A stretch of DNA of 64,000 nt from Thermoanaerobaculales bacterium (GTDB lineage: Bacteria > Acidobacteriota > Thermoanaerobaculia > Thermoanaerobaculales > Sulfomarinibacteraceae), in contig JARFRM010000284.1 of assembly GCA_029287235.1 (NCBI GenBank), positions 1-64,000 on the forward strand. The letters run 5' to 3'. How positions within the stretch are numbered: the stretch's first letter is position 1; each line of letters starts with the position of its first letter. Shown here one piece after another: positions 51,856-64,000 of this stretch. The position numbers were made by a program, and so were the translations under genes. Below the pieces are notes generated by a model. That model did no database searches and was not told the origin of the DNA. It saw only the letters and a program-made list of their open reading frames with translations.

Positions 51856-54513
51856 ATGAAACGAACCGGAACGAAAACCCGCCTCACAACCACCACAGTT
51901 CTGTTCCTGGCTGCGACCACCGTTCTCGCGCTGGAACCGCCGACGGCCGAACAGATCGAGAACTACCGACAGGACGGGACACTCGCCGCCAGGGCTGACG
52001 CCGCTCGATCCTTCGGCAATCACCGGGTGGCGCCGCAACTCGCAGCACGTTTCGGAGCGCAGGCGACCGTCCTCAAGGCGCTGCCCGATGCGCCCTCGGT
52101 GCTCCCGTCCGACGGGTCGCCTCGGGTTCTCACCCTGCTCATCGCCTTCGAAGACATGCCGGGCTTCACCGATCCCGCCATTGTCCACGATCGGATCTAC
52201 GGCGATGGCGAGGCCGAAGCGTTTCCCTACGAAAGCATGACCAACTTCTACCGGCGATCGTCCTACGGTCAACTCGAGATCGCGGGCTCGACTCTCGGTT
52301 GGTACACAACTCCCTACCAACGATCCGAAGTCGTGGAGAGCTACATCGGGCGCCAGGCTCTCATCAAGGAGGTCATCACCCACCACGACACCGAGGGCCA
52401 CGATTTCTCGCAGTACGACAATGACGGCGACGGGGTCATCGATTACCTCGTCATCATCTGGACCGGCGCCCACGGTGAGTGGGCCGAATTCTGGTGGGGT
52501 TACAAGACGAGCTTCTTCAACGACAACTTCACGGTCGACGGGGTCAAGGTCGGGACCTATTCGTGGCAGTGGGAGAACTACGACTGGCCGGGCGAGTTCA
52601 CTCCCGAGGTTCTGATCCACGAAACCGGTCACGCCCTCGGACTGCCCGACTTCTACGACTACGACGATGCCATCGGTCCCAGGGGCGGCGTCGGCGGGAT
52701 GGACCAGATGGATGGCAACTGGGGCGACCACAACGCCTTCTCCAAGTGGGTGCTGGGCTGGCTTGAACCCGAAATCTACAACCAGGATCTTCACTCCATT
52801 GTGTTCTCCCCCTCCGACGCTTTTCCCGACGCCGCGGTCCTCATGCACGGCGACCCAGTCGCCGACCCCTTCGCCGAGTACTACCTGGTCCAGGCCCGTC
52901 AGCCGGAGGGAAACGACGCCGAGCTTCCGACCCGCGGCGTGCTCATCTGGCACATTGACGCCCGGACCGATGCCGACGGCCATTTCCTCTACAACAACTC
53001 CTACACCGAGCACAAGCTGCTGCGACTCATGGAAGCCGACGGCCTCGAGGAGATCGAACAGGGCAGGCGCGCGGACGCCGACGACTTCTACTCGGTCGGC
53101 GATGTCTTCGATAGCGACAGCTTCCCGAGCTCTCACCGCTATGACGGAGTGCCGACAAACCTCTCCATCAACAGCATCTCCCACAGCTGGGCGGGCCCCG
53201 ACATGCAGATCGGAGCCGATCTCGGCTCCGGCTGCGCCCTGTGGTGCGACTCGTCGGTGACCCCCAACGCCTGGCCCGGGGTTCCCATCAGCTTCAACGG
53301 ATCTCTGGACACCGCCAATTGCGACGGAACCGCATCCTTCGGGTGGCTCTTCGGTGACGGCGCCGAATCGGGCGACACCAGCGCGTCACACGCCTATGTC
53401 TCCACCGGAACCTACGACTGGAGCGTCAATGCCGAACTCGAGGACGCCACCTGCGCCCACAACGGCTCCGTGCTGGTCTGCACCGATTTCCCGTGCTGGC
53501 AGTGGAGTCCGTCGACGCCGATGATCGAGGCGCGCGCCCAGCACGCCACGGTCGAGCTCGAAGATGGCCGGATCCTCGTCGTCGGCGGTGGGCTCTCGGT
53601 GCCGGAGATCTATGACCCCGAAACCGGGGTCTGGTCGCCGGCTGCGGCGACCGTCTACCCGCACCTCTTCACCCTGGCGGTGCTGCTTCATGACGGACGA
53701 GTCCTTGTGGTGGGCGATGATGCCGATGGCGAACCCGGAACGGAGATCTATGATCCGGCCACCGACGCCTGGGCCACAACCGGTCAGCTCAACCACAACC
53801 GAACCTCCCACTCGGCCATCACTCTCTCCGATGGGCGGGTGCTGGTCGCCGGCGGGATCTTCGGCGGGTTTCCCCATTACGACGAGGTTGAATCTGTCGA
53901 GGTCTTCGACCCTATGTCGGAGTCCTGGTCGGTGATCGGCGCCCTCAACGGAGAACGGTTCTACCCGGGGTTGGCCAACCTCCACGACGGTCGAACCGTG
54001 ATCGCCGGCGCCCGAGAGCTGTCCCTCTTCGACCCGGCGTCCGACGCCCTGACGCGGGCCGCTCCTCTGCCGGCGGAGTGGCAGGCGCCCATCGCCATCA
54101 CGCTTGACGACGGGCGGGTCCTGCTCACCGGGATCGCCAACGCCCCCATGACTCTGCTCTGGAATCCCGTCGACGGACGATGGACCATCGCCGGCCCCAC
54201 GAACACGCTCCGCCAACTTCCAACCGCCAACAAACTGGCCAACGGCCTCGTTCTCGTGACCGGAGGCATCGACATGTCGGGCATTCCCATCGCATCCACC
54301 GAGTTCTTCGACCCGGCGACGAAGAAGTGGTCGTCGGGCTCATCGCTGACCATGGAGCGGGGAGCGCACACGGCGACCCTGACGGCCGCCGGCAACCTGT
54401 TCATCGCGGGTGGATTCACCGATTCGGGACCGACGCCGATCACAAACGGTACCGAGATCTTTGTCCAACCGACCACCCCGCCGAGGGAAATCGGAGGGCG
54501 CGTCTCGCCGTGA
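51856..54513 (+). CDS. M6 family metalloprotease with PKD-like and kelch repeats
   Basis: HETGHALGLPDFYDYD zincin motif; FGWLFGDG PKD-like; repeated ILVVGGG..YDPETGVW kelch units. Confidence 0.85.
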   Translation: MKRTGTKTRLTTTTVLFLAATTVLALEPPTAEQIENYRQDGTLAARADAARSFGNHRVAPQLAARFGAQATVLKALPDAPSVLPSDGSPRVLTLLIAFEDMPGFTDPAIVHDRIYGDGEAEAFPYESMTNFYRRSSYGQLEIAGSTLGWYTTPYQRSEVVESYIGRQALIKEVITHHDTEGHDFSQYDNDGDGVIDYLVIIWTGAHGEWAEFWWGYKTSFFNDNFTVDGVKVGTYSWQWENYDWPGEFTPEVLIHETGHALGLPDFYDYDDAIGPRGGVGGMDQMDGNWGDHNAFSKWVLGWLEPEIYNQDLHSIVFSPSDAFPDAAVLMHGDPVADPFAEYYLVQARQPEGNDAELPTRGVLIWHIDARTDADGHFLYNNSYTEHKLLRLMEADGLEEIEQGRRADADDFYSVGDVFDSDSFPSSHRYDGVPTNLSINSISHSWAGPDMQIGADLGSGCALWCDSSVTPNAWPGVPISFNGSLDTANCDGTASFGWLFGDGAESGDTSASHAYVSTGTYDWSVNAELEDATCAHNGSVLVCTDFPCWQWSPSTPMIEARAQHATVELEDGRILVVGGGLSVPEIYDPETGVWSPAAATVYPHLFTLAVLLHDGRVLVVGDDADGEPGTEIYDPATDAWATTGQLNHNRTSHSAITLSDGRVLVAGGIFGGFPHYDEVESVEVFDPMSESWSVIGALNGERFYPGLANLHDGRTVIAGARELSLFDPASDALTRAAPLPAEWQAPIAITLDDGRVLLTGIANAPMTLLWNPVDGRWTIAGPTNTLRQLPTANKLANGLVLVTGGIDMSGIPIASTEFFDPATKKWSSGSSLTMERGAHTATLTAAGNLFIAGGFTDSGPTPITNGTEIFVQPTTPPREIGGRVSP

Positions 54514-54650: not shown

Positions 54651-54704
54651 CTTCTCACTTTCTCACTTTCTCACCCTCTGACTTTCTCACTCTTCACTCT
54701 TCCC
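54651..54704. repeat. 8/7-bp array (TTTCTCAC)n spanning the secA stop codon
   Basis: CTTCTCAC TTTCTCAC TTTCTCAC CCTCTGAC TTTCTCAC TCTTCAC TCTTCCC. Confidence 0.88.
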
Positions 54705-57105
54705 GTTTCTCGAGCTCCGCCTTGAGCTTTCGCCGCTTCCAGTGCAGAACGAGCCCCCACAGGAACAGCACCGGCGCCGCGGCGATGGCGCCGATGGCGG
54801 CGAAGCCCGCCCGGTTGGCGAGCTGACGCATGGAGTTGTCGCCGAAGGGCGCATCGCTCACCTGATAGGTCCAGGTCGAGGAGGGACCGGTTAGACCCTG
54901 GCCCCGCCAATCGACCCCGTCAGGGGTCACCTCGAGGGCGTTGAAAAAGGATGAGATTTCGTCGTCGATGGCGTTCTGGAGATCCTCGAAGGCCACACCC
55001 GCCTCCTTGCAGAACTCCGCCGCAGGGTCCTTGCCGACATAGCCGACCACGTGGATCCCGTCTCGGATTCGAGCCAACTCGGCGAGATGATCGCTCCAAC
55101 AGCGATCCATGACCACCAGGGTGAGACGTCGTTCGATCTCCTCGAGAAAATCGGGCCCGACCTTCATCGAGAGTTCATCCCACTTTTCCGGGCAACAGGA
55201 GCGAAGCAGATCCGGTCGCTCATCACCGAGCAGGATCCGCTGCCGACGATCCTGGAAGAAGAACCGCTGGGATTCGATCACCGCCGAGAACTCCCACAGG
55301 CGGCGACGAACATCCAGGTTTTCGCCCTCGATGATCCGCTGGGCGCGGTCGATCTCGTGGGCGAGCACCGGAGAATCGACGACCGCATCCTGCCGGTCGG
55401 GAAGCACCCGAGCGCTGATCAGCTTCTCAACCCCGTAACGTCGGATCAGCGGATCCTCCAGGCTGACGTAGAAACGCGACGAGCCCGGGTCCCCCTGGCG
55501 ACCCGCACGGCCGCGCAGCTGCCGATCGATCCGAAGGCTCTCGTGACGGTTTGTCCCGATCACATAGAGACCCCCGAGCTCGACGACACGATCCCGCTCA
55601 CTCTCGTCGGCACCGCCGAGCTTGATATCGGTTCCGCGGCCGGCCATGTTCGTGGAGATCGTCACCGCGCCGGGGGCTCCGGCTTCGGCAATGATGCCGG
55701 CCTCGAATTCGTCGTTCTTGGCATTGAGCACTCTGCACGGAACCCCCGACCGCACGAGCGCGTCGGAGAGCTCCTCGGACTCGGCGACGCTGGCCGTACC
55801 GACCAGGATCGGCCGCCCGGTTGCCTGGACCCGGGTGATCTCATCCATCAACGCACGGTGTTTCGCCTCGAGGTGAGTGAAATTCAGGTCCTGGTGATCG
55901 ACTCGAATGCAAGATCGGTGCGGCGGGATCACCACCACTTGAAGATCGTAGAAATCGCGAAGCTCATCGGCCGACGAGCTGGCGGTGGCGGTCATGCCGC
56001 ACAGTTTCGGGTAGGTCCTGAGGAAGTGGTGCATGGTGACGGAACCGAGAATCCGTCCTTCGTCCTGTAGACAAAGTTGTTCCTTGGCCTCGATGGCCGC
56101 CTGGAGTCCGTCGGGCCACTGGCGGTTATCGGCGACTCGGCCCGTGAAGTCGTCGACCAACTCGATCCGATCTCGACGGACGATGTAATCGCGGTCGCGC
56201 TCGAGGAGGTGAAGTGCATGGAGTGCGTTGCGCAGATCGGCGAGGAGCTCCAGATTTTCCGGCTCGTAGAGGTTTCCGCAGCCGAGGATGGCCTCCACCC
56301 GCGCCGAACCGGCTTCGGTGAGGAAGATGTTGTGTCCGTACTCGTCGGTGTCGAAGTCCACTTCCGGTTCGAGTTGACGGGCTATCACGGCGGTTCGCTC
56401 GGCGCGGTTGACGTGTCCCTCGACCGCACCGGCGATCACGAGAGGAATCCGGGCCTCGTCGATCAGAATGGAATCCGCCTCGTCCACCAAAGCGAATGAC
56501 GCATGGCGCCGCAACAGTCGGTCCGGCTCGAGCGCGAGAAAACCGCGGAGGAAATCAAACCCTGCTTCTTTGGCGGTGAGGTAGGTGATGTCGCAGTCGT
56601 AGGCGCGCTGCCGATCTTCCGGGGTCGATGTCTCCTGGACGACACCCACCGACAGACCGAAGGTCCGGTAGATGGGCCCCATCCAGGCGGCGTCGCGCCT
56701 GGCGAGATAATCGTTGAAGGTGAGCACGTGCGCCCCTCCGCCGCCGAGAGCCGCGAGGGTCACCGGCGCCACCGCGGCAAGGGTCTTGCCCTCACCGGTC
56801 GCCATTTCGACCACCGAACCCTCCGCCAACGCGAGACCGGCCGCGAGCTGTTCCTCAAAGGGGCGCAGACCGATGCTCCGGTGGGCCACCTCACGGACCA
56901 TGGCGAAGGTCTCGAGGAGCAGGCCCTCCGGATCGGATCCACTCCGAGCTCGCCCGTGAAGACCACCCGCAATCTCCTCAAGGGCATCGTCGCCGAGGTC
57001 CCGCCACGTCTGCTCCATCGCTTGGATTCGGCTCAGATGCTCCGCGTACCCGGCAACGCCGTACTCCACCGTGTCACCGAGCCACAGACGGACGCGGCGA
57101 GTCAA
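54694..57105 (-). CDS. Accessory SecA-type translocase ATPase with C-terminal transmembrane helix
   Basis: ATGEGKTLAAVAPVTLAAL, VDEADSILIDEARIPLVIAG, NMAGRGTDIKLG, RQLRGRAGRQGDPGSSRFYVSLEDPL; C-terminus AIGAIAAAPVLFLWGLVLHWKRRKLKAELEKREE. Confidence 0.92.
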   Translation of the reverse strand: MTRRVRLWLGDTVEYGVAGYAEHLSRIQAMEQTWRDLGDDALEEIAGGLHGRARSGSDPEGLLLETFAMVREVAHRSIGLRPFEEQLAAGLALAEGSVVEMATGEGKTLAAVAPVTLAALGGGGAHVLTFNDYLARRDAAWMGPIYRTFGLSVGVVQETSTPEDRQRAYDCDITYLTAKEAGFDFLRGFLALEPDRLLRRHASFALVDEADSILIDEARIPLVIAGAVEGHVNRAERTAVIARQLEPEVDFDTDEYGHNIFLTEAGSARVEAILGCGNLYEPENLELLADLRNALHALHLLERDRDYIVRRDRIELVDDFTGRVADNRQWPDGLQAAIEAKEQLCLQDEGRILGSVTMHHFLRTYPKLCGMTATASSSADELRDFYDLQVVVIPPHRSCIRVDHQDLNFTHLEAKHRALMDEITRVQATGRPILVGTASVAESEELSDALVRSGVPCRVLNAKNDEFEAGIIAEAGAPGAVTISTNMAGRGTDIKLGGADESERDRVVELGGLYVIGTNRHESLRIDRQLRGRAGRQGDPGSSRFYVSLEDPLIRRYGVEKLISARVLPDRQDAVVDSPVLAHEIDRAQRIIEGENLDVRRRLWEFSAVIESQRFFFQDRRQRILLGDERPDLLRSCCPEKWDELSMKVGPDFLEEIERRLTLVVMDRCWSDHLAELARIRDGIHVVGYVGKDPAAEFCKEAGVAFEDLQNAIDDEISSFFNALEVTPDGVDWRGQGLTGPSSTWTYQVSDAPFGDNSMRQLANRAGFAAIGAIAAAPVLFLWGLVLHWKRRKLKAELEKREE

Positions 57106-57796: not shown

Positions 57797-57831
57797 CAAT
57801 CAACAATCCACAATTCATCATTCATGATTTC
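57797..57831. repeat. 7-bp array CAATCAA CAATCCA CAATTCA TCATTCA TGATTTC spanning the downstream gene stop codon
   Basis: Direct reading. Confidence 0.75.
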
Positions 57832-59330
57832 TCGAGCCTCATCGTCGCTCCGAGCCACCGGTCTCGGATTTCGTCGGGAATCTCGAGGTCCTCTCGCGTC
57901 ACCGCGAGGAGAGCCGGATAGAGCCACTCATCACCGAAGGCCACAGCTGCCGCAGCGGCCCTGACCTCGGGTCTCTCCCGTCCAACGAGCGTGTGCAACC
58001 TTCGTTTCCGAGCCGAACCCGATCCCGCACACAACGCCAGCCTGACACCGGCGACGGAGGCGATCTCCACCAGACGACCCTCCCGGGCGGTCAGCTCGTG
58101 AGGGCGAAGAGGCCCCGGGCTCCAGAGACTCCGCACAGCACCCCACCCTCGGCGAAGGCCGTCGACGATCCTCGGCCAGAAATCCAGCGGGCGCCCCCGG
58201 CTGCCGACGTTCTCGATCCGGATTCCGAGGAGCTCCGACAACAAGCTCCGCTCCTCGGTGGTGACTTCGACAACCATGGAGTGACCCGCATCGCCCGATC
58301 CGGGCTCGGTGGCGACCACCACGCCGCCTCGCTTCGCCGCCCACCGCACCAACGAGGACGGGGACTCCATCCGCCTCGTCGCTCCCTTCCTCGTCTGGAC
58401 GACGGGCGAGGCCATAATCTGATCACGGCGAAGCCCGAGGACCGCTGATCGCAGAAGCAGCGCACTCAGCCGTCGGCGGACCGGCTCGTCCACCGACGGC
58501 AACCGATCGACCAGGAGCAGCAGCATCCGCACCGCCTCGTCGATGAGGGGCTCGAGGTGCGGGTTGGCAGCGGCGCGGAGCTCGTCGGCGCTCGACCCGG
58601 CAGCCGCGCCGCCGATCATCTCGACCGCGGCGGAAAACGGTGGGTAGCCCGGCACCACCGCTCTGGCCGACAGGACCCCGTGCTCGAGGAGCCACAACCG
58701 GGGCGACTCACCCGATGCCGTCACGGCGATCTCCCCCGGCAACGGATCGGCGATTCTCATGCGATAGAGGCCCTCCGGGAACCCCCGCTCGACGGGACGA
58801 CCGCAGACGACAACGGGGATCGGCACGAAGCGGAGCGCCGTTCGGAGCCAGGCCACGGCCCGGTGTGAGGCGAGCCCCCGGCAACGCCAGTTCACGACAG
58901 TCGATGGCGAGCCGGTGTCCGACTCGGTGATCTCGAGCTCGATCCGACCCCGACGGGCCTCCATCCGGCCCGACCGACCCCCGGATCGGGTCTGCAACGT
59001 GATCCGGGCGCCCGGCAGACCCGTTGCCCACAGCAGGGCCAAGAGCCCGGCCGCCTCGACACGACCGATGGCGGCCTGACGACGGACCCGAGGAACATCG
59101 GGACCAAAGACCTCCCCGAGATCCCGAAGCTCGTCGGGAGCGGCAAGGGCGCCATCACATCGGATTTCGAATCCACCCCAGGCACAGTCGATCTCTACTC
59201 CGGCCACCCCCCGGGCATTGGCGAGACGAACCAGCTCTGCCGGAACCTGCCACGGACCCTGGAGCTGGGCGCCGCACAGGGTCGCAATCTCCGCGGCGAC
59301 GTCGATGGCGAAGAGTTCGTCCGCTCTCAC
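57822..59330 (-). CDS. Conserved-looking protein, apparently a degenerate GHKL-fold paralog of the upstream gene
   Basis: GTG start overlapping upstream TGA (GTGA); PAELVRLANARGVAGVEIDCAWGGFEIRCDG aligns by eye to VRELLQNSRDAGAGRIDLSVERLGGFDRILCRDDG. Confidence 0.7.
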   Translation of the reverse strand: MRADELFAIDVAAEIATLCGAQLQGPWQVPAELVRLANARGVAGVEIDCAWGGFEIRCDGALAAPDELRDLGEVFGPDVPRVRRQAAIGRVEAAGLLALLWATGLPGARITLQTRSGGRSGRMEARRGRIELEITESDTGSPSTVVNWRCRGLASHRAVAWLRTALRFVPIPVVVCGRPVERGFPEGLYRMRIADPLPGEIAVTASGESPRLWLLEHGVLSARAVVPGYPPFSAAVEMIGGAAAGSSADELRAAANPHLEPLIDEAVRMLLLLVDRLPSVDEPVRRRLSALLLRSAVLGLRRDQIMASPVVQTRKGATRRMESPSSLVRWAAKRGGVVVATEPGSGDAGHSMVVEVTTEERSLLSELLGIRIENVGSRGRPLDFWPRIVDGLRRGWGAVRSLWSPGPLRPHELTAREGRLVEIASVAGVRLALCAGSGSARKRRLHTLVGRERPEVRAAAAAVAFGDEWLYPALLAVTREDLEIPDEIRDRWLGATMRLEKS

Positions 59331-62113
59331 GATGACCCCTGGGCCCGTTCCATGACGGCCTCCGCCGCCAGCATCGACAGCAGGAGCCGTTTCCGGCTCG
59401 GTGAAGCCTGGAGGCGCTCGATCACATGGTCGGCGAGAAGCAACATCGCGCTTGCAGGCTGGCCCGCATCGAGCCGACAGACTCGATCCCACAAAGCACT
59501 CCCTCTGTCCACAACCACAACAGGGTGACGCCCTGCCAACCGTCCGTCGAGGACGACGACCTCATCGGCGAGCCCGGATCCGATGATCACCTTCCAGATC
59601 TCACCCACTCCCGCCGCGGCCCGCTCGAGATCCTCGGTCACCGGATGCGCTTCGCTGCGACGCACGATCCCGTCCCACCGGTCGAGATCGATGGCCCCGA
59701 GAGTCGAGGCCACCGCTTCTCCCTCGGGGCGGCTGCCGTCGATGACCGGCAGACCGTTTTTCGCTGCGCGGAGCGCGAGCTTCGATGAACGGAAGCTCAC
59801 CGCCAAACGACCGCGATGGGAGAGGGATCGGGCACGGTCGAGGCTGATGGCCGAGGCACCGAGAACCGGCACCACCCTCCGAGCGAAGAGCGACGGCATC
59901 TCGCGATACGCCTCGGGCCGTGCCAACGCGCCCTGCAGAAGCCCGGCGAGATCGGGGGCGCCCTCCGGTTGAACGATGTGGACAGCCCAACGGCGCCGGA
60001 CGACCCACGCCGATCCCACCGCTACGAACGCGACGAAGACCACCGCGACGACGCCCAGCGCTCGGCCCGATACTCCGGTCCACGACCTGGTTGGCGCCCT
60101 CCTTCGGATCGAGATCTCCTCTTCGGCCACTCCGGGAGGAGCTTCGGCGTCAACGAAAGGCCGATGTGGGAGAGGACTGGCCGGGGCACCCCGGCTGGCA
60201 TCGACAGCCCGCCACCCCCCACCCTCGCCGCGGTACTCAACCCACGCATGGAGGCCGGGCATCGCCCGCCCCTGTGCCCCGACAAATCCCACGGCCATCC
60301 GGACCGGGACACCGGCTCGAGCGAGAATCGCCGCGACCAGCGCATTCTGAACATCACAGTCGCCGGCGCCGACCATCAGGCAGCGTTGGGCGAATGAAGG
60401 CTCCTGTCGGGCGGCTGCCCGGTGGCGGTCGACGGTCCGCTCGGAGGTGTCGTAGACGACCTGACGCTGAACCCAGTCCCTCGCCACACGTGCCGCCTCG
60501 TCGGTTTCGAGGGGCCGCAGCTGAAGAGCAAAGTCATCCGCCGTCTTCGGCAGGATGGGCCAGGATCCCGCGAGGATGGGCTGACTCTCGAATCCCTGCC
60601 CCGTGCGGTACCGGACGCTCCCGCTGATGATCCCCTCGATGACAAGGAGCGGACCACCATCCGGGGCGGCCCACAAAACTCCTTCGCCCCCCTCCAAACG
60701 CAAGCTCGCGGGATCGAGAAGCTGGCCCGTCGGCACCGGTAATCGGACCCCACCGGACATCCCATCGAGGTCGAGCGCGATCTCGAGGCATGATGCACTG
60801 CAGGTTGCGCCGAGATACGGCCGCCGGCCGGAACTCGGCGCCGCCGGTACGACCCGGCCGTCGTCGGCCAGGGCGATGATACGAAAGACCGACAGGAGGG
60901 GTTCGACGTGGGACGGTAGATAGCGGAGAGGAATTTCCGCCGACAGCGCCTCCAGGCGATCGGCCGCCGGGCCAAGGTAGCGGTCGGCCGCTTCGGCCTC
61001 GAGGACGGCGTCCGGGCGGCGAACACTCTGGGCCAAGGCGTCCGTTCCCAGGGCGCCGGGTCCGATCTTTCGGTCCGGCCCCTTTTCGGCCAACCACCAA
61101 GCGCCGACAGCCAGAATCGCCGCCACCACCAGCCCGACTGCGAGCCTTCTGGCCCACCTGGCCGGCAGCAGCTCGAGGCAGCGCAAACCGGCACGACGAA
61201 ACGACCCCAACCCCGATCCCTGATCAAGTTGGTCACGAACCAGGCGTCGCACACCCCTGCGACCGATGGCCACCAGCTTCCGCAGCTCCCGGTCGGTCCG
61301 TGCGTCGCCACGCGCCATGAGCACATGGAGGCGCCGACTGTCGACAATCACCCTCGGGACCAGCCCCTCGGGAGTGCTCGAACTCCGCCGCCGCCGCCGT
61401 CGATCCGGCTGGGTCAGGAGCTCGTCGAGGGTGGCGGTGGTGCGAACCCTGAGACCGTGCGCCAGAAGATCCACGCGCGGCCGGTCCGTCAGGGCTACGG
61501 CTCCACGGAGACCCGATCCTGCAAAGCCCAGACTCGGCGGTTCAAGCTCGATCTCGGACGTCGCCCGGCGCGAGTTGACCCAGACTTCGAGAATCTCACC
61601 GTCTTCCCCGCGGAGATGGCGGGCATCACGTTGTACCGCATCCCACACCGCAGCCACCGGGTCATCACCCCGGGCGGTTCGGGTGAGCTCGATTTCGGTA
61701 CCCCCGCCGAGGGAAGATTCACCGCGTTCGATCTCCTCGAGGTCACCGCTCATCCTGAGCTGCCAGCCCGGCCCCTGTCCCGGCTTTGAACGCACGGTCA
61801 CCTCGTCGGGTTCGAAACGGAGAACGGCCCAGAAGCCGATCCCGAATCGTCCCGCCGTGTCGCTCCGCCCGCTCTTGGACGAGGCATAGAGGGTGAAGAG
61901 GTATCGACGGGCGTGATCAAAGGTCATTCCACAGCCGTCGTCGCGACAAAGGATGCGATCAAACCCACCGAGTCGTTCGACCGAGAGATCGATGCGACCG
62001 GCACCGGCATCGCGCGAGTTCTGGAGCAGCTCCCGCACGAAGACCCAGGCATCGCCTCCATAGCGACGCGCCTCATGAAAGGCCCGTCGACGAAACTCAC
62101 CCGCATTGGTCAC
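59327..62113 (-). CDS. GHKL (HSP90-like) ATPase - TM - transglutaminase-like - TM - C-terminal domain fusion
   Basis: N-box ELLQNSRDAG, G1 CRDDGCGM, G2 AGRFGIGFWA; TGase GDCDVQNALVAAILARAGVPVRMAVGF, LHAWVEY, WRAVDAS; TMs LAVGLVVAAILAVGAWWLA and LGVVAVVFVAFVAVGSAWVV. Confidence 0.85.
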   Translation of the reverse strand: MTNAGEFRRRAFHEARRYGGDAWVFVRELLQNSRDAGAGRIDLSVERLGGFDRILCRDDGCGMTFDHARRYLFTLYASSKSGRSDTAGRFGIGFWAVLRFEPDEVTVRSKPGQGPGWQLRMSGDLEEIERGESSLGGGTEIELTRTARGDDPVAAVWDAVQRDARHLRGEDGEILEVWVNSRRATSEIELEPPSLGFAGSGLRGAVALTDRPRVDLLAHGLRVRTTATLDELLTQPDRRRRRRSSSTPEGLVPRVIVDSRRLHVLMARGDARTDRELRKLVAIGRRGVRRLVRDQLDQGSGLGSFRRAGLRCLELLPARWARRLAVGLVVAAILAVGAWWLAEKGPDRKIGPGALGTDALAQSVRRPDAVLEAEAADRYLGPAADRLEALSAEIPLRYLPSHVEPLLSVFRIIALADDGRVVPAAPSSGRRPYLGATCSASCLEIALDLDGMSGGVRLPVPTGQLLDPASLRLEGGEGVLWAAPDGGPLLVIEGIISGSVRYRTGQGFESQPILAGSWPILPKTADDFALQLRPLETDEAARVARDWVQRQVVYDTSERTVDRHRAAARQEPSFAQRCLMVGAGDCDVQNALVAAILARAGVPVRMAVGFVGAQGRAMPGLHAWVEYRGEGGGWRAVDASRGAPASPLPHRPFVDAEAPPGVAEEEISIRRRAPTRSWTGVSGRALGVVAVVFVAFVAVGSAWVVRRRWAVHIVQPEGAPDLAGLLQGALARPEAYREMPSLFARRVVPVLGASAISLDRARSLSHRGRLAVSFRSSKLALRAAKNGLPVIDGSRPEGEAVASTLGAIDLDRWDGIVRRSEAHPVTEDLERAAAGVGEIWKVIIGSGLADEVVVLDGRLAGRHPVVVVDRGSALWDRVCRLDAGQPASAMLLLADHVIERLQASPSRKRLLLSMLAAEAVMERAQGSS

Positions 62114-62155: not shown

Positions 62156-62359
62156 CTAGTAGATCGGGTCGGCCTCCAGCCAGTACATGTTCTTGGCCGG
62201 TTCGAGATTCTGGTTGGTCTCCTCATTCCACGAGGAGGTCTGTTGACCGCAGCCCGTACAGGCGTGCTCCTCGCCCAACATGGTCGCATCGGTGCGCTCC
62301 GAGGACCAGTCGGAGATGGCACCACAATAGGTGCAGCGGATCGGATCAGGTCGTTGCAT
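62156..62359 (-). CDS. Small zinc-ribbon protein
   Basis: MQRPDPIRCTYCGAISDWSS...HACTGCGQQT: paired CxxC motifs. Confidence 0.65.
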   Translation of the reverse strand: MQRPDPIRCTYCGAISDWSSERTDATMLGEEHACTGCGQQTSSWNEETNQNLEPAKNMYWLEADPIY

Positions 62360-62477
62360 GGTACGTATCCTCCACGAGTACGAACGGCACGCTACTCCAC
62401 TTGAGCAGATGAAGGAAAGGCGCGTTGCGGCACAGCATGCCGCAACGCGCCGTGAATGAATGCTCATTCACGTAAGA

Positions 62478-62704: not shown

Positions 62705-63979
62705 CTACAGGAGCGCTTCGTCGGAGTCGGGGTCTTTCGATACGACCGTGCGGAAGAGCGCTTTGACGATGTCGATGTTGTTCGACAACAGATCGAAGAA
62801 GTCCTCGGCCTCGATTGTCAGCAGCCGGGTCTCGGTCTCGGCCACGGCATCGCCCGACCGTGGCCTCCCGCTCAGGATGTCCAACACCCCGAATCGCCCG
62901 CTCGATCCGACGACCGTTCCACTATCGCCGCCGCTCCCGAGGCGAATCCGGCCTTCGACAACACAGTAGAGCGCATCGGGGGCATCGCCCTTTCGGAAGA
63001 CTTCCTCGCCCCTGGCGAATCTGTTTTCAGCGGCGATGGCGGCCAACCGCAGAACCTGGTCCGCGTTGCAGTGCGCGAAGAGGTCGACGCCCTGAAGGAA
63101 GACCATCATCTCGATATGTGCCATGGGTGCCATTTGACTCGTCTCCCCTTTGCCGATCAGTCCCTTGCCCGGAGCCACCTTGCCTGCCCTCGCCATGACC
63201 CACTCTGCGGTCTGCCGCACAAGCGGCTCCTCTGCCTTCTCCACCATCTTCGCCACCAGTGGATAAAGCGAAATGACTTCCTCGGCCCAAACCGCGTGCA
63301 TGGCGGCCAACACGATCCCGCGCGCAGCGGGGTCGAGCCTGGAGTCGGTCTGAATGAGACGATCCAGGGTCGCTTCGGGCGACTCCATGAGGATCCCGAA
63401 GTAGAGTCTCGCGCGCCGAAGCTTCTCCTCTGGGGGCGAATCGTCGATCACCGAAAACACGTCGCGTCTGAGGGTTCCCGACAGACTGTTGTCGAGGTAC
63501 TCGAGGGCTCGCGCGCGGAGGTTCGGCTGCCGGCTCATGAGGCTGCGCCGAGCCGCCCGCACATCTTCCGGCCGCTCAACGAGTTCGAGCAGACCGAAAA
63601 TGTTGCTGACCAGCGTTTGCATCCGTTGTGCGAGGAGCTGCTGCGGCAGCGTCGGCACCCTGTCGGACTTCTGCCACACCGCAAACGGCCCCTCGAGTTG
63701 GGCTTCATGCAGAGAGGAGATCGCCCACAGATCCGCCAGACACCGCAGATATCGAGATGCCTCGGCCTGAACCTGCGCCCGAACCGCGCGATCGGAGAAC
63801 CGGGTTGCCCGATGGCGGCCTCGCATATAACACAGGGCCTCGACGATCTTGGAACGCAGAAGGGTGTCACCGGCGTCGAGACTCTCTTCGAGGGCATCGG
63901 CTGCAGACTGGACGCCGAGGAGGGCGAGGGTCTTGGGCACGGCTCGCCGAACCCAGATCTGCTCGTCGTCGGAGTTCAT
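62705..63979 (-). CDS. HEAT-repeat plus cyclic nucleotide-binding (Crp-like) domain protein, truncated at window edge
   Basis: FLQGVDLFAHCNADQVLRLAAIAAENRFARGEEVFRKGDAPDALYCVVEGRIRL; helical repeats upstream; reading frame open to the window end. Confidence 0.8.
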   Translation of the reverse strand: MNSDDEQIWVRRAVPKTLALLGVQSAADALEESLDAGDTLLRSKIVEALCYMRGRHRATRFSDRAVRAQVQAEASRYLRCLADLWAISSLHEAQLEGPFAVWQKSDRVPTLPQQLLAQRMQTLVSNIFGLLELVERPEDVRAARRSLMSRQPNLRARALEYLDNSLSGTLRRDVFSVIDDSPPEEKLRRARLYFGILMESPEATLDRLIQTDSRLDPAARGIVLAAMHAVWAEEVISLYPLVAKMVEKAEEPLVRQTAEWVMARAGKVAPGKGLIGKGETSQMAPMAHIEMMVFLQGVDLFAHCNADQVLRLAAIAAENRFARGEEVFRKGDAPDALYCVVEGRIRLGSGGDSGTVVGSSGRFGVLDILSGRPRSGDAVAETETRLLTIEAEDFFDLLSNNIDIVKALFRTVVSKDPDSDEALL

Positions 63980-64000
63980 GAAATGGCGCAGCGGCTGAAC

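Follow-up and report, generated by a model that had tools for sequence, protein, structure and literature searches.

Genes A and B and Their Features

The 64,000-nucleotide stretch of DNA analysed here (the window) belongs to a Thermoanaerobaculales bacterium of the family Sulfomarinibacteraceae in the Acidobacteriota (GenBank assembly GCA_029287235.1, contig JARFRM010000284.1, positions 1 to 64,000 of the forward strand). Two overlapping genes on its minus strand, here called A and B, are the subject of this work. The product of gene A has an ATPase domain at its N-terminus and a further domain at its C-terminus; between them, two transmembrane (TM) helices flank a transglutaminase (TGase)-like domain. 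It is best read as an HSP90 with a TM-beta-TGase-TM insertion in its middle region. Gene B encodes its putative pseudo-HSP90 partner. The architecture and the gene pairing are well supported. The features of the two genes, in window coordinates, are as follows.

59327..62113, minus strand: gene A, putative membrane HSP90-TGase; 928 amino acids, GTG start, TGA stop; relatives span its whole length
61619..62113, minus strand: A residues 1-165, GHKL/HSP90 N-domain (Pfam, invariant residues, Foldseek match to TRAP1)
61214..61618, minus strand: A residues 166-300, HSP90/MutL-type middle segment with invariant Arg268 (61310-61312) and the loop DSRRLHVLMARGDA
61085..61162, minus strand: TM helix 1, A residues 318-343, N-in (model, charges, hydrophobicity)
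60554..60988, minus strand: A residues 376-520, predicted periplasmic beta-rich domain (model, Cys pair in relatives)
60179..60553, minus strand: A residues 521-645, TGase-like domain (Pfam, conservation, closest solved structure TgpA 6g49)
60356-60358, 60248-60250, and 60200-60202, minus strand: codons of the TGase triad C586, H622, and D638, respectively
59987..60061, minus strand: TM helix 2, A residues 685-709, C-in (model, charges, hydrophobicity)
59330..59980, minus strand: A residues 712-928, predicted cytoplasmic HSP90-like C-terminal part, comprising the small alpha/beta part of the middle domain and the C-terminal domain (profile alignments)
59327..59330, minus strand: GTGA overlap, in which the stop of A overlaps the start of B by 4 nucleotides
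57822..59330, minus strand: gene B, putative pseudo-HSP90 partner, 502 amino acids, no TM helix (adjacency, fold, lost N-box Asn)

Domain Organization and Membrane Topology of A

The frame of A runs uninterrupted from GTG to TGA as a single open reading frame (ORF). An original prediction, made from the letters of the sequence, had described positions 59327-62113 as an intact fusion of a GHKL ATPase to a TGase flanked by two TM helices, with another domain behind the second helix; the reading frame, Pfam matches, and hydrophobicity agree, and all of the motifs that it quoted are in place. In particular, residues 25-109 match HATPase_c_3 (39.6 bits, cut-off 25) and residues 538-639 match Transglut_core (41.8 bits, cut-off 23). 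The key residues of the N-domain are E28, N32, and D35; D58, G60, G62, and M63; K80; and G88, F90, G91, and G93. The catalytic Cys, His, and Asp that had been recognized in the TGase domain are all present as C586, H622, and D638. Strongly hydrophobic segments number exactly two (residues 324-343 and 686-705). An AlphaFold2 model built from 45 sequences (mean predicted local distance difference test score, pLDDT, 85.7) places helices at 318-343 and 685-709, a beta-rich region at approx. 396-506, and a TGase fold extending to approx. residue 640, and the C-terminal domain is well predicted from residue 713; its weak spots are the ATP lid (77-89) and the linker 643-683.

The original prediction had placed the ATPase and the C-terminus in the cytoplasm and the TGase in the periplasm, and positive-inside counts over 45 relatives of A point the same way. 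TM helix 1 is oriented N-in in 32 relatives and oppositely in 4, TM helix 2 is C-in in 41 and oppositely in 2, and the remainder tie in each case. This charge bias supports a cytoplasmic ATPase and C-terminus and a periplasmic TGase, a topology that is thus supported by prediction. Moreover, a Cys pair in the beta domain, found in 31 of the 45 relatives, suits a periplasmic location.

TGase-fold enzymes with a Cys-His-Asp triad cross-link, deamidate, or cleave amide bonds. The closest solved structure to the TGase domain of A is TgpA (PDB 6g49, E 2.2e-11), with the Cys, His, and Asp aligned; the match is confined to profile positions 98-267 of the periplasmic part of A. The TgpA domain has transglutaminase activity in vitro, and its gene is needed for the viability of Pseudomonas aeruginosa (PMC3507681). 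The TGase-like domain of A is presumably catalytically active. Membership of A in the TgpA family was rejected, as there is no likeness beyond the TGase region, A has two TM segments in place of an N-terminal region with many, and no further Pfam family is matched.

Distribution and Conservation of A

Full-length relatives of A with 37-65% identity occur in genomes of the same family, and a class-wide hidden Markov model search added two in another family. A scan of 84,980 species genomes gave 55 loci whose record titles name Acidobacteriota (including Vicinamibacteria, Holophagae, and Aminicenantes) or Myxococcota/Deltaproteobacteria, the exceptions being a "proteobacterium" and two records named no further than "bacterium." Named carriers are Nannocystis exedens DSM 71, N. 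pusilla, Plesiocystis pacifica SIR-1, Enhygromyxa salina, and Paraliomyxa miuraensis. In seven Myxococcota genomes, full-length A is present in one copy per genome. The A gene of a single record (L121, N. pusilla strain Na p29) is divided between two frames.

Both active sites are preserved over this range. All twelve N-domain residues listed above are identical in 55 of 55 relatives, Arg268 is identical in 54 of 54, and the TGase triad is identical in 56 of 56, an invariance that holds at 25-65% identity among relatives. Arg268 lies in a loop that resembles, by eye, the one bearing the catalytic Arg of HSP90, and it may be the equivalent residue. Transglut_core is matched at E ≤ 0.01 in all 45 members examined with Pfam, and the TM-TGase-TM insertion lies inside the HSP90 body, never at its end, in every full-length relative. 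The concern that the triad might not be conserved in orthologs, or that the fusion might occur only here, is thereby removed, the triad being invariant and the fusion known from two phyla.

B Is a Predicted Pseudo-HSP90 Linked to A

Whenever a contig extends far enough, A is followed directly on its own strand by a relative of B. At the 32 loci with a placeable start, the median spacing is -4 nucleotides, and 25 of the pairs overlap or lie within 30 nucleotides of each other. Phylum-wide, relatives of B were found in 10 of 396 genomes, and the loci fetched from these also have the TGase/C-terminal part of A. Every B match at E < 1e-100 in the tested genomes adjoins A, and the weaker phylum-wide matches adjoin an A part. 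In favour of the pairing, the trees of A and B share their main clades, and their pairwise distances correlate at 0.94.

No Pfam family matches B, apart from a weak HATPase_c match in 6 of 43 relatives (best E 6.5e-4). Profile comparison relates its N-terminal half to the ATPase/middle region of A (98.4%, E 8e-15) and its C-terminal half to the C-terminal domain of A (88.4%, E 2.8e-6), these E-values being those of single pairwise comparisons; reversed and unrelated controls stayed below 1%, and reversed controls for the C-terminal part gave 0.1%. The model of B (pLDDT 90.6) matches TRAP1, human HSP90B, and HtpG over approx. 620 alignment columns, with E down to 4.9e-14; the root-mean-square deviation is high, which a different arrangement of the domains would explain, and the TM-score is approx. 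0.4. By alignment, the N-box Asn position is occupied by Leu, Arg, or another residue in 43 of 43 sequences. With this Asn replaced in every copy, B is not expected to bind Mg-ATP in the conventional manner. Prediction thus supports B as an HSP90-fold protein with a dead nucleotide pocket and with neither a TGase nor a membrane part.

A as a Probable Split HSP90

Foldseek matches the N-terminal part of A to the N-terminal and middle domains of TRAP1 (E 4e-13, 19-20% identity). The C-terminal part was linked to HSP90 through a soluble protein family of approx. 560 amino acids, whose profile aligns with residues 20-290 of A at 100% and, after a gap, with the C-terminal domain of A at 97.6% (E 3.8e-12, family columns 358-549); the same family aligns with HtpG at 99.1% over 474 columns, and reversed controls for these alignments scored below 3%. 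Since the two parts of A align in order to a family that itself aligns to HtpG, A is read as a split HSP90. The original prediction was therefore right that the GHKL fold is intact, but the ATPase is best read as the N-terminal part of a split HSP90, not as a free GHKL module. Likewise, the C-terminal domain of approx. 220 amino acids that it described does exist, but its HSP90-like identity was overlooked, as were the beta domain ahead of the TGase and the overlapping gene at 57822-59330.

Other assignments of the ATPase were rejected. A sensor histidine kinase does not fit, as none of 45 A members matches HisKA and the ATPase domain begins at residue ~20. MutL scored 33.9 bits against 180, over residues 26-80 only. 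Canonical HSP90 (PF00183) turned up in just 6 of the 61 genomes from the window genome's class, and the window genome was not among the six.

Soluble HSP90-Like Genes and Their Giant Partners

The seven Myxococcota genomes contain, besides full-length A, soluble homologues of A of approx. 530-650 amino acids without TM helices. These soluble HSP90-like ATPase proteins have neither a TM helix nor a TGase; their loci (L158-L170) are from Nannocystis, Plesiocystis, Enhygromyxa, and Paraliomyxa genomes (G498-G504), and the sequences, coming from a few related genomes, are not independent. At 13 of the 16 loci examined, a long ORF on the same strand carries a B-like unit (E 2e-6 to 2e-20), often with more partial units. 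These giant partner ORFs span approx. 900 to 2300 codons, their trimmed products being mostly 1300-1700 amino acids long, and profile comparison resolves one N-terminal B-like unit (99.3%) with partial repeats behind it (96.9%, then weaker). The giant partners showed no convincing Pfam domains. The soluble HSP90-like/giant gene pairs of Myxococcota are apparently an undescribed class, and within a wider class of HSP90/pseudo-HSP90 gene pairs, the A-B pair would seem to be the branch that sits in the membrane and bears a TGase.

A Possible Mechanism and Its Alternatives

HSP90s are regarded as soluble clamps that work on client proteins, and their dimers alternate between an open state and a closed, ATP-bound one. 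In A, both TM helices have their starts and ends within the HSP90 body, so that closure of the clamp would be expected to displace them and thereby affect the enzyme; the position of the insertion inside that body, not at its end, suggests mechanical coupling. A and B would form a two-subunit inner-membrane machine in which A pairs, through the HSP90-like parts, most likely with B, or with itself under B as a regulator. Binding and hydrolysis of ATP in the N-domain of A would open and close the clamp, and its motion would shift both TM helices and so switch the periplasmic enzyme on or off, with B, having no ATPase, rendering the clamp asymmetric. The original prediction had proposed ATP-driven dimerisation as the control of a periplasmic papain-fold enzyme; this would fit the scheme, and the split HSP90 gives it a more specific form. 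By analogy with TgpA and other periplasmic TGase-fold enzymes, the enzyme may act on envelope proteins or cell-wall peptides by cross-linking, deamidation, or cleavage.

The arrangement suggests that an enzyme lying beyond the inner membrane may be under the control of intracellular ATP. We infer the ATPase and TGase activities of A, the A-B heterodimer, the inside-out direction, and the substrate. We see about an even chance that an ATP-driven HSP90 clamp, with a pseudo-ATPase as its partner, controls a TGase-fold enzyme in the periplasm whose substrates are envelope proteins or cell-wall peptides. The fuller proposal, an asymmetric cytoplasmic HSP90/pseudo-HSP90 clamp that mechanically gates a periplasmic enzyme and represents the membrane branch of a wider, undescribed two-gene class, is put forward more tentatively, at somewhat lower probability. 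If true, an HSP90 would be used as a transmembrane motor or switch, and the ATP-free periplasm would gain an ATP-controlled enzyme. The culturable strains (Nannocystis, Plesiocystis) make it possible to ask what role the HSP90 ATPase cycle plays when its cargo is fixed in the chain.

Several observations weigh against this picture. Compared directly with HtpG, the C-terminal part of A gives no significant match (0.5%), so that its link to HSP90 is transitive through the soluble family, and no member of A or B matches the Pfam HSP90 family (PF00183). The correlation between A and B distances would arise to some degree through common descent alone. Finally, no conserved neighbours were found at the A-B loci beyond the pair itself, and thus no substrate or pathway is suggested by the neighbourhood.

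The same architecture and topology would also fit an outside-in sensor, in which the TGase-fold domain in the periplasm would bind or process a signal from the envelope (e.g., a cell-wall peptide) and, acting through the TM helices, alter the HSP90 clamp and with it the cytoplasmic clients or B, so that energy and information flow inward. The soluble systems have only cytoplasmic HSP90 and pseudo-HSP90 parts; the core job may thus be cytoplasmic and the TGase an added input. However, a fully invariant triad exceeds what a binding sensor would need, although signal processing would require it too. We regard a sensor as possible but distinctly less probable than ATP-driven gating of the periplasmic enzyme.

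Less probable still is a membrane-anchored chaperone, in which the HSP90 pair would fold or hold clients located at the inner membrane (e.g., exported proteins) and the TGase would independently cross-link or process proteins emerging into the periplasm, the two being co-localized without allostery. The HSP90 fold of the cytoplasmic parts is consistent with this, as is a SecA2-like gene approx. 700 bp from B in the window; however, SecA2 is not kept as a neighbour, and the mechanical coupling suggested by the insertion within the HSP90 body in all full-length relatives speaks against independent action.

A role in phage defence or conflict, based on the GHKL ATPase, is very unlikely. The PADLOC models TmtA and MzaB match the ATPase domain of A, and some conflict systems include transglutaminase domains (PMC3710099), but the two matches cover only approx. 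100 amino acids of common ATPase motifs, and neither partners of such systems nor defence genes were seen among the neighbours at the A-B loci. Moreover, full-length A occurs once per genome in the seven Myxococcota and forms persistent clades, not scattered islands, and viral contigs gave two matches, to ATPase motifs only, which also argues against a viral or mobile origin. A chance, functionless fusion of an ATPase gene with a TGase gene, or a fusion artefact, has nothing beyond the unusual domain combination in its favour and is ruled out for practical purposes by conservation in two phyla, two invariant active sites, and the linked gene B.

Relation to Known Systems

A shares with HSP90, HtpG, and TRAP1 the ATPase residues of the N-domain and, as far as can be judged, a similar Arg loop in the middle segment and the N-M-C (N-terminal, middle, C-terminal) domain order, and B is predicted to have the HSP90 fold over its length; A differs in being split by a TM-TGase-TM module and genetically paired with a pseudo-ATPase. 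To our knowledge, the HSP90s described so far are homodimers, soluble or luminal, and contain no inserted enzyme. The soluble HSP90-like proteins of Myxococcota are homologous to both the N- and C-terminal parts of A and mostly have a neighbour gene with B-like units, but their partner is mostly 1300-1700 amino acids long and carries repeated partial pseudo-HSP90 units. TgpA of P. aeruginosa is likewise a membrane protein with a periplasmic TGase domain, whereas A has two TM helices and HSP90 parts inside the cell.

Sacsin, which also has sacsin-like ATPase relatives in prokaryotes, resembles A in its N-terminal ATPase motif, at a score below the cut-off (44.9 vs. 50 bits), and its repeated HSP90-like units recall the giant partners; it is, however, a single soluble chain, and A has no DnaJ, UBL, or HEPN match. 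With the SACS domain also scoring only 18.6 bits against 32.8, sacsin was rejected as an identity for A. LapD/LapG, in which c-di-GMP controls a periplasmic TGase-fold protease, resembles the mechanism proposed for A in the inside-out control of such an enzyme (PMC4359373). There, however, enzyme and membrane receptor are two different proteins, and c-di-GMP takes the place of ATP hydrolysis as the input.

The combination had been suspected not to belong to a named family, and indeed no family covering A or B was found in Pfam, NCBIfam, or PADLOC. A literature search for GHKL or HSP90-like proteins combined with a transglutaminase, with most subscription journals outside its reach, found nothing of this kind. 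While the parts are known, the HSP90-TGase combination and the asymmetric pair appear to be new.

Neighbouring Genes

The window contains the following further features near A and B.

62705..64000, minus strand: 3' part of a gene for a major facilitator superfamily (MFS)/nucleotide-transporter-like protein with HEAT repeats and a cNMP-binding domain, upstream of A
62156..62467, minus strand: small ORF with two CxxC pairs, probably starting at an internal Met (62359), 42 nucleotides upstream of A
54694-57105, minus strand: SecA2-like protein (TIGR04221, 801.6 bits, cut-off 725)
51856-54513, plus strand: secreted-looking protein of 885 amino acids with an HExxH-type motif (HETGHALGLPDFYD), then apparent PKD and kelch repeats (by eye)

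The transporter-like protein has an MFS/ATP-ADP-transporter-like membrane domain (weak matches) fused to the HEAT repeats and the cyclic-nucleotide-binding domain. Its gene lies upstream of A in four genomes, and a full-length relative is found at L028:11977-15348. The small ORF with two CxxC pairs, located between the transporter gene and A, is kept ahead of A in three related genomes (L028, L029, and L030). The SecA2-like protein has an unusual C-terminal TM helix (768-787), and in the near relative L028 its gene is matched only as fragments in several frames. In L106 and L107 (Acidobacteriota OFTM223 and OFTM268), which form a distant branch, the gene immediately upstream of A has the same orientation and encodes a response regulator with DUF4388.

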